Assembly: GCF_024362485.1 (NCBI RefSeq)
Contig: NZ_CP101456.1
Coordinates: 744,001 to 808,000 of the forward strand
From: Natronobeatus ordinarius
GTDB lineage: Archaea; Halobacteriota; Halobacteria; Halobacteriales; Natrialbaceae
DNA length: 64,000 nt
Reading direction: 5' to 3'
The position numbers and the translations under genes were made by a program. Shown piece after piece: positions 46,470 through 50,671 of this stretch (position 1 is its first letter; each line of letters starts with the position of its first letter). The notes beneath the pieces were generated by a model. That model was not told the DNA's origin, ran no database searches, and saw nothing but the letters and a program-made list of their open reading frames with translations.

Positions 46470-46584
46470 GCCGGGAGATTCGGACCGTCCGGCAGGCGGC
46501 GTGGAAGGCCGAACCGATCGACTCGAGCGAGCGTCCGACGGTAGCGGCGAAAAGACTTAGCGATTGTCTGCACGACGTATACAT

Positions 46585-46782
46585 GTGAGCACCTCGATCA
46601 GCGTTTCCGAGGAAACGAAGGAGAAACTCGAGCGGCTCAAGCGTGAGGGTGAGAGTTTCGACGAGCTGCTGGTTCGGCTGGCCAACGAAGAGGAGCCCAT
46701 TACCGTCGGCGCGTGGGATTCCGGCACCGCCGATCGCGCTCGCGAGGCCGTCGACCGCTCTCGGGAGCACTTTGGACGATGA
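46585..46782 (+). CDS. vapB: VapB-type antitoxin
   Basis: 65 residues from GTG 46585 (VSTSISVSEETKEKLERLKR). A ribbon-helix-helix-like N-terminus and a GESFDELLVRLANEE segment match haloarchaeal antitoxins paired with PIN toxins. The acidic C-terminus would wrap the toxin. Its TGA overlaps the toxin ATG by four bases, the usual co-translated toxin-antitoxin layout. Upstream TTG starts are possible but weaker. Confidence 0.82.
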   Translation: MSTSISVSEETKEKLERLKREGESFDELLVRLANEEEPITVGAWDSGTADRAREAVDRSREHFGR

Positions 46783-47174
46783 CGTTTCTCGACTCGTCGG
46801 TCATCATCGACATGCTCGAGGGCGTCGAGGACACCGTCGAGTTCGTCGAATCGCAGGGGACACCCTATCTGACTTCGGCGATCTGCGTCTACGAAGTTCT
46901 CGAGGGGCCGCTCGGAAGCGGCCGCACCGACGTCGAGGCGGAACGGCAGCGCTTCGGCGGCGTTCGTGCCCTCGAGTTCAACGAGAGCCTCGCGCTCGAG
47001 GCCGCCCGGCTACAGGACGAACTACTCGACGAGGGTACCCGAATGGCGGTTCGAGACCTGATGATCGCCGCCACGGCGCGATCGACCGGCGACCACCTCG
47101 TCGTTGCCGACGCCGACTTTCAGACGGACGCCCTCGAGTCGAAGCTGCGAGTGACGAACTGCAGGGACGACTGA
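46779..47174 (+). CDS. vapC: VapC-type PIN-domain toxin
   Basis: 131 residues. PIN acidic residues: Asp5 in MTFLDSSVIIDML, Glu in SAICVYEVLEG, Asp in MAVRDLMIAATA, and Asp in VVADADFQTD. VapC enzymes are Mg-dependent RNases that cut tRNA or rRNA until neutralised by VapB. Reading frame complete. The stop codon coincides with the left edge of an 80-bp palindrome. Confidence 0.9.
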   Translation: MTFLDSSVIIDMLEGVEDTVEFVESQGTPYLTSAICVYEVLEGPLGSGRTDVEAERQRFGGVRALEFNESLALEAARLQDELLDEGTRMAVRDLMIAATARSTGDHLVVADADFQTDALESKLRVTNCRDD

Positions 47175-49610: not shown

Positions 49611-50201
49611 ATGGAGGGGAATCCACACGTCCTGATCGTCGAAGACGAACCCGACCTGGCCGCCCTGTACACCACCTGGCTCGAGGATTCGTGTACGGTC
49701 GAGACGGCGCTCGACGGGCGCGAGGCGCTCGAGTCGATCGACGAATCGGTCGACGTGGTCCTGCTGGACCGTCGGATGCCCGACCGCTCCGGTGAAACCG
49801 TCCTCGATACGATCCGTGAGAACGGACTCGACTGTCACGTCGCGATGGTGACGGCGGTCGAACCCGACTTCGACATCGTCGAGCTGGGATTCGACGCCTA
49901 CCTCGTCAAGCCCGTCTCGAAGGCGGAACTGCGCACGGCCATCGATCGGCTGCTGTTACGATCGACGTACGACGAACAGCTCCAGGAGTACTTCTCGCTC
50001 GCCTCGAAGAAGGCACTGCTCGACGGCCAGAAGACCGCCCCCGAACGTCGGGCGAGCCACGAGTACGCGCGACTCGAGGACCGTCTGGCTGTGGTACGCA
50101 CGCAGGTCGACGAGACGATCGACGAGCTGGTGAACCGGGACGGGCACCGGGACCTCTGCCTGGAGATCACACAGAGTCAAGGAGAAAGCCCACGACAGTA
50201 G
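49611..50201 (+). CDS. HalX-type response regulator, C-terminus altered by an inserted element
   Basis: 196 residues. Receiver domain with VLIVEDEPDLAALY, phospho-acceptor Asp53 in VVLLDRRMPDRSG, the switch Thr in VAMVTAVEP and Lys100 in AYLVKPVSK. A helical HalX domain (about 118-180) follows, as in many haloarchaeal regulators without DNA-binding output. The last codons (GESPRQ and stop) lie within the left end of an IS200/IS605-like element that begins at 50181, so the natural C-terminus has been replaced. The response-regulator core is unaffected. Confidence 0.88.
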   Translation: MEGNPHVLIVEDEPDLAALYTTWLEDSCTVETALDGREALESIDESVDVVLLDRRMPDRSGETVLDTIRENGLDCHVAMVTAVEPDFDIVELGFDAYLVKPVSKAELRTAIDRLLLRSTYDEQLQEYFSLASKKALLDGQKTAPERRASHEYARLEDRLAVVRTQVDETIDELVNRDGHRDLCLEITQSQGESPRQ

Positions 50202-50556
50202 TCGTGGGATGAATCCGACGAGTCTCCGTCAAAACCGCAATACGTAGCTTGAACGGGGTCGAATGTTAGCGTAACTTCCTCGGGAACATTGGAGTTGGAT
50301 TGGGGTCTCCGTAACCAAAACGCAACCCTACCCAAGTGAGGCTCGGACGCGAGTCCGAGTCGGGTCGATGGCACGGCCTGTAGGGTGTCAGCAGGGTAGT
50401 CCGAACGGACTGGCGTCATCATCCGCCCACCGCCCCGACGCACCACCTACAAACCGGGACCGACCACCGAGGTCGGGAAGTTGCCTCCGTTGGGGTCGGA
50501 ACGCCCGACCCCAAACGCGAGGAATCCCACGACTTCAGTCGTGTGGAGGATGTCAA
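50181..50556 (+). mobile_element. Non-autonomous IS200/IS605-type element (376 bp, no tnpA or tnpB)
   Basis: Left end ggagaaagcccacgac folds into cccacgac/gtcgtggg (50189-50208). The right end atcccacgacttcagtcgtg (50525 on) gives a matching hairpin and finishes gaggatgtcaa at 50556. The left flank (50176-50180) and the right end (50552-50556) both read gtcaa, matching the short cleavage tetranucleotides of this transposon group. Between them lie several hairpins: 50342-50359, 50398-50411 and the 10-bp stem ttggggtcgg/ccgaccccaa at 50490-50514, but no transposase or TnpB frame. It resembles PATE/MITE derivatives described in haloarchaea. Confidence 0.7.
50461..50556 (+). ncRNA. Candidate orphan omega-RNA (TnpB guide RNA) scaffold
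   Basis: In IS200/IS605 elements the RNA guide scaffold occupies the 3' end, and the guide is whatever flanks the right end. Here two strong hairpins (50490-50514 and 50526-50546) precede the right terminus, the expected architecture, but tnpB is missing. If transcribed, the guide would begin gcgcgagccgtcagcgactt at 50557. Expression and partnership with a TnpB elsewhere are inference. Confidence 0.35.
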
Positions 50557-50671
50557 GCGCGAGCCGTCAGCGACTTCCGACCGGCGTGTGACCCACGACT
50601 GACGCGCGGCTCCTTTTTCCCGGAGGTGAGGTCGTGATCTTCTCGCTCGACGTGGCCTCGTTCGCCACCTG

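Follow-up and report, generated by a model that had tools for sequence, protein, structure and literature searches.

The window analysed here is a stretch of 64,000 nucleotides of Natronobeatus ordinarius, a haloarchaeon with a 4.2 Mb genome assembled in two contigs. It carries halX, which encodes a response regulator with a HalX domain, and a gene for a PAS/GAF/HATPase kinase, with a gene-less element placed between the two. From left to right the element consists of a left hairpin, a promoter-like block, a 5' RNA module, a scaffold and a right hairpin (Table 1). Upstream of purL the window also holds a toxin-antitoxin pair (46564-47174, + strand), in which the VapB antitoxin gene (PF02697) overlaps that of a PIN-domain toxin (PF01850).

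Table 1. Features of the halX locus (positions in the window).
Feature	Position	Strand	Basis
halX (response regulator + HalX domain)	49611-50201	+	Pfam PF00072, PF08663
Target tetranucleotide TCAC; predicted TAM	50167-50170	+	directly left of element
Whole gene-less element (PATE), 386 bp	50171-50556	+	copies, empty-site join, element-free orthologues
Left-end hairpin CCCACGACAGTAGTCGTGGG	50189-50208	+	covariation in sister group (helix 1)
Promoter-like block (BRE/TATA-like), putative	50235-50250	+	conserved alignment columns
5' RNA module, gene-less elements only	50277-50360	+	covariation; model R2
Supported helices of the 5' module	50281-50284/50331-50334 and 50291-50294/50307-50310	+	covariation
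omega-RNA scaffold: GGGTCGATGGCACGGCC ... ACAAACC ... GTTGCCTCCG ... GAGGAATCC ... right-end hairpin	50361-50556	+	alignment, model R1
Right-end hairpin	50526-50546	+	hairpin search; covariation (helix 15)
Right-end terminal TCAA	50553-50556	+	invariant in nearly all copies
Predicted guide GCGCGAGCCGTCAGCGACTT (displaced halX tail)	50557-50576	+	flank past right end; placed as in TnpB omega-RNAs (PMC12558985)

The boundaries were set from 26 other copies of the element, from the empty-site join in halX and from 29 element-free halX orthologues. A first-pass annotation had described a tnpB-less IS200/IS605-like segment of 376 bases with matching terminal hairpins, GTCAA in the left flank and at the right end, and an expected empty site joining 50180 to 50557. 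Apart from the left edge this description stands: the host and many other genomes contain full-length gene-less relatives that share these ends, the arms of the left and right hairpins form a 20-nt inverted match that is 90% complementary, and the open reading frames within 50171-50556 include no transposase or TnpB frame. The edge itself had to be moved. GTCAA is present at 50176-50180 and again at 50552-50556, the left occurrence lying inside the element and not in its flank. Comparison of copies places TTAC or a one-base variant 8-12 bases left of the GTCAA edge (50180) and directly left of nearly all copies (TTAC in most, TCAC at the halX copy), so that the junction falls after TCAC and the length becomes 386 bp. 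IS608 is cleaved at the same signals, a left-hand TTAC and a right-hand TCAA.

The insertion has altered the end of halX. As the first-pass annotation noted, the left end of the element supplies the last codons and the stop (50199-50201, within the left hairpin), and the tail after LEIT is replaced by the element-encoded QSQGESPRQ. When 50170 is joined to 50557, the empty site reads LEITREPSATSDRRVTHD followed by a stop; halX then ends in LCLEITREPSATSDRRVTHD, which brings back the conserved C-terminus LEITRE... (LCxDITRES, for example, in orthologues, whose ends include LCQDITRESILSK, LCKDITRESVVDV and similar), and the ancestral stop would end at 50602. Left boundaries at 50180 and 50172 were rejected because the resulting halX tails fit the orthologues less well. 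The segment is absent from all 29 orthologues, most of which share the neighbours of halX, purL on the upstream side and the sensor kinase gene on the downstream side, and is thus not a conserved part of halX: the element was inserted into the 3' end of the gene at TCAC/TTAC. A second copy in the host genome (L027) interrupts a DUF6498 gene, and joining its flanks restores a match to DUF6498 across the junction (E 4e-61). No bases are duplicated at the exact joins of these two copies, both of which restore genes.

The element belongs to a multi-copy family. A BLAST search of 61 genomes found copies of 84-90% identity at three separate sites in Natronosalvus amylolyticus. With at most one mismatch allowed, a 22-base motif taken from the 5' half has 27 sites, spread over 15 of the 125 genomes of the family and 8 genera, against no site for the reversed motif in the same 125 genomes. 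All but one of the 27 sites lie in elements with both ends, the remaining one being cut short, and none of the 27 elements contains tnpB. Lengths are about 368-441 bp, mostly 368-403, the 441-bp copy carrying an insert. Among named records, those in which the motif occurs include Natronoglomus, Natronosalvus, Saliphagus, Natronococcus, Natrinema, Halovivax and Halostagnicola, and further Haladaptatus, Halorubrum, Halobellus, Haloquadratum, Natronocalculus and Halegenticoccus. Some of these named hits lie on megaplasmids. Copies of 88-90% identity reside on Haladaptatus and Halomarina plasmids; none was present in the viral contigs and phages searched. A hidden protein was rejected, as no reading frame is common to the copies. 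These comparisons establish the anatomy and the mobility of a conserved gene-less family of about 370-400 bp that has hairpins of IS605 type, targets TTAC and terminates in TCAA, and whose insertion sites vary between copies and between genomes.

Several variant forms were seen alongside. The host genome has a third gene-less copy (C1:2413.8-2414.1 kb; L028:2811-3092, minus strand) with a diverged left-end hairpin, GCAGAGCCTCGCCGTTCACGGTGGGGATACGCGCC, and this left-end subtype is also found in two Natronoglomus copies (L158, L165). Solo related left ends of about 52 bp (TCAC followed by AGAAGTGCAAGGAGGAAGCCCACGACGTTAGTCGTGGGAGGAATCCGAC), with neither right end nor tnpB, occur in the host at L029:1810-1861, L030:2902-2959, L031:4120-4171 and L033:2134-2186, and resemble the 52-bp PATEs of PMC3119063 that consist of termini alone. 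In a subgroup from Natronococcus and Saliphagus (L109 to L113) the left end is different and TGAC replaces TTAC, which suggests the same RNA coupled to a different transposase specificity. A right-end-only fragment of Natronosalvus amylolyticus (L108:1764-1960) consists of about 195 nt of scaffold and lacks both the left end and the 5' module.

Such a family might have arisen by decay, with an IS605/IS1341 element losing tnpB through internal deletion and its RNA no longer selected. Core deletions of such kind are documented in Haloquadratum (PMC3119063), and the scaffold overlaps the C-terminal coding sequence of tnpB in full elements. The gene-less copies, however, keep a near-constant length and share across many genera a 5' module that is missing from tnpB elements, they have inserted repeatedly at different sites, and the covariation described below strongly weakens the idea of an unselected RNA. 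The element is not a one-off deletion relic, and we regard decay as an unlikely account of it.

We then consider the structure of the RNA. The segment 50181-50556 folds better than shuffled sequences on both strands (z = -3.25 for the plus strand, -2.97 for the minus strand), so folding energy alone does not pick the functional strand. Covariation among the copies lies well above both shuffled and slid controls. In a sister group of 13 sequences with an 87-pair consensus, 21 pairs show two-sided changes, and 44 compensatory cells were counted against 12.5 +- 2.8 in shuffled alignments and at most 9 in slid structures. The 5' module, examined in 29 sequences with two helices set by hand, gave 24 compensatory cells against 7.6 +- 3.0 shuffled and at most 1 slid; both tested structures were derived from the same sequences, which makes the slid control somewhat favourable to them. 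In the group to which the window's copy belongs, covariation supports the automatically derived consensus fold less well (9 of 85 pairs) than in the sister group. Selection acts on the 5' module as a structured RNA, in which TTGGAGTTGGNTTGGGGTCTCC and CAACCC are almost invariant. In 27 of 32 copies a TTA lies 44-50 bases upstream of the module, with A/C-rich conserved columns ahead of that TTA; this promoter-like block may correspond to a BRE/TATA pair, in which case transcription would start at about 50270-50275.

In its 3' part, over about 195 nt, the element carries the omega-RNA scaffold of a single TnpB class. Aligned to the last 330 bases of tnpB elements, the gene-less copies share with this class GATGGCACGGCC, ACAAACC, GTTGCCTCCG, GAGGAATCC and the end hairpin. 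A covariance model of part of this region (R1, 50437-50556), trained on gene-less copies only, matches 24 loci with or adjoining a TnpB of this class, here named after L043, at E 1e-8 to 1e-16, compared with E 0.003 or worse on other TnpB classes of the same genome. Across the host genome R1 picks out, besides the three gene-less copies, the TnpB element L043 (E 3e-12), the next match having E 0.08. A second model, R2, represents the 5' module; its matches on tnpB elements are weak at best (E 0.004 or worse) and end in the shared GATGGCACGG. Among Rfam models, the sot families RF02656 and RF02657 had no match above the gathering score, and HEARO (the IscB omega-RNA) no match, in the window or at the element in related loci; at gathering and relaxed thresholds alike, no relevant match fell on the element. 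An HgcC match on L027 (E 0.009; 28.9 bits, with the gathering score at 50) was taken as chance, and the only sot0042 match, in L109, adjoins a different TnpB.

L043 encodes an intact TnpB of 447 aa, 2.5 Mb from the halX copy. Members of its class have the RuvC-I and RuvC-III Asp and lack the canonical RuvC-II Glu (VGD), with a Glu instead at an alternative site, six residues ahead of the first CxxC of the zinc finger. PMC10711439 calls this arrangement Ealt. A large haloarchaeal class of TnpB with this alternative, Fanzor-like position includes L043, L117, L126, L129, L244 and others. The idea in the first-pass annotation of an orphan guide scaffold served by a TnpB encoded elsewhere is supported by these alignments, which point to one intact candidate partner in the same genome. 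Presence of the class was dropped as proof of partnership, the whole-class association being not significant (13 of 15 element-bearing genomes against 72 of 110 others; Fisher p = 0.08). A subgroup more than 80% identical is enriched at a cut chosen post hoc (7 of 15 against 8 of 110, p = 0.0003). At E 1e-60 the class went undetected in two element-bearing genomes, one of them 83% complete, and TnpA went undetected in two. As a separate observation, six TnpB copies of equal score and length (466 aa) at host C1:227.5, 1068.8, 1769.2, 2255.5, 2835.5 and 3358.1 kb (L017 to L022) are a recently amplified element of another class.

Elements with tnpB and matching ends, some with an adjoining tnpA, occur in genomes that bear the gene-less element. 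These matching ends, and the fact that both strands fold better than shuffles, would also suit a MITE-like passenger whose palindromic ends are kept for TnpA acting in trans and whose interior serves only the folding of single-stranded DNA during transposition. Yet TnpA needs the ends only, and the strongest conservation is internal; PATEs of 52 bp consisting of termini alone exist (PMC3119063), so the interior is not required for end recognition; and the homology to an omega-RNA scaffold, like the promoter-like block, is left unexplained. We find this passenger reading quite improbable.

A regulatory function has also been weighed. With a response-regulator gene on one side of it and a PAS/GAF/HATPase kinase gene on the other, the element could be a domesticated regulatory RNA, the alternative that the first-pass annotation had offered; it would then act on halX or on the downstream sensor kinase, in a TldR-like manner or as antisense. 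This finds no support in the comparisons: insertion sites differ among copies and genomes, the element is missing at 29 orthologous loci, and the presumed cognate TnpB retains its catalytic residues (D, alternative E, D), unlike TldR. The predicted guide, whose length is probably about 16-20 nt, matches only its own site beyond chance in the host genome; action elsewhere was rejected because the sole further site has three mismatches, which is chance level, and the lack of a second convincing match counts against a regulatory role elsewhere. We hold domestication to be very unlikely.

The explanation we favour, and consider probable, is that the element is a non-autonomous IS200/IS605-type element (PATE) that constitutes a mobile orphan omega-RNA gene, with TnpB and TnpA supplied in trans. 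By extension from TnpB omega-RNA biology, from which we infer transcription, TnpB binding and guide use alike, a promoter inside the element would make an RNA of about 285 nt that reads through the right end into the flank. This RNA would load onto the L043-class TnpB, and the flank-derived guide GCGCGAGCCGTCAGCGACTT would steer the nuclease to cut element-free copies of halX; in a probably polyploid archaeon, repair after cutting would copy the element back and so retain it. Mobilisation would come from a TnpA whose own element shares these ends. The sole TnpA of the host sits in an element with different end hairpins, and for this reason the halX copy may now be immobile. Points that weigh against the favoured explanation are the wide occurrence of the TnpB class in the family, the element-bearing genomes in which the class or TnpA went undetected, the TCAC target of the halX copy in place of TTAC, and the lower covariation in the window's own group.

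A broader and more speculative proposal, which we put forward tentatively and on balance doubt, is that these are RNA-only transposon satellites with their own promoter whose long RNA competes, via the 5' module, for the TnpB (and perhaps the TnpA) of other elements, so that the satellites persist and spread among haloarchaea. Should the RNA act in trans, the family would provide a clean natural test of whether TnpB nucleases serve guides from gene-less parasites and of how orphan guides outlive nuclease genes. The host, with its one TnpB and three orphan guides, makes a small and tractable system, to which the 5' module adds a conserved RNA domain.

Among known systems, the closest are PATEs, gene-less relatives of IS605 defined in Haloquadratum walsbyi (PMC3119063). 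Like them, the halX element is too short for a transposase (386 bp) and has no conserved open reading frame, carries near-terminal palindromes shared with tnpB and tnpA-tnpB elements, lacks terminal inverted repeats and target duplication, and is mobile, with empty sites in relatives and multiple sites in one genome. It has neither the Y1 TnpA nor the TnpB that marks autonomous IS200/IS605 elements. HqIRS71, a PATE of Haloquadratum walsbyi, likewise keeps a long IS605 terminal segment with broken frames; as far as the published description goes, to which the comparison with HqIRS71 is confined, Haloquadratum PATEs are presented as DNA elements, without a guide-RNA scaffold, 5' RNA module or promoter (PMC3119063). 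A PATE-like element of Halanaerobium hydrogeniformans (PMC7290912) also combines a left hairpin, the final part of tnpB and a complete right end, but it is a single copy of 271 nt and a plain deletion product. With the sotRNAs, the omega-RNAs of haloarchaeal TnpB (Rfam RF02656, RF02657; PMC12558985), the halX element has in common a right-end scaffold, a right-end hairpin and an expected flank-derived guide; unlike them, it has no adjoining tnpB, is unmatched by the Rfam models, and bears an extra 5' module and probably its own promoter. The L043-class tnpB elements (TTAC/TCAA) have the same target and end hairpins and a homologous 3' scaffold, and differ by the presence of tnpB, in some also of tnpA, and by the missing 5' module. 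Gene-less omega-RNA loci, for which a nuclease is expected in trans, are familiar as HEARO copies without IscB and as the ORF-less omega-RNA elements of Geobacillus; these differ from the halX element in being of IscB type or bacterial. Neither the nuclease-dead partner nor the distinct regulatory target of a TldR was found, taking the L043-class TnpB as the putative partner. The halX element stands apart from known PATEs through its additional, covarying 5' RNA module and its probable promoter; in the accessible literature (most subscription papers lying outside it) we did not find a description of a gene-less family that is so deeply shared and has both of these.
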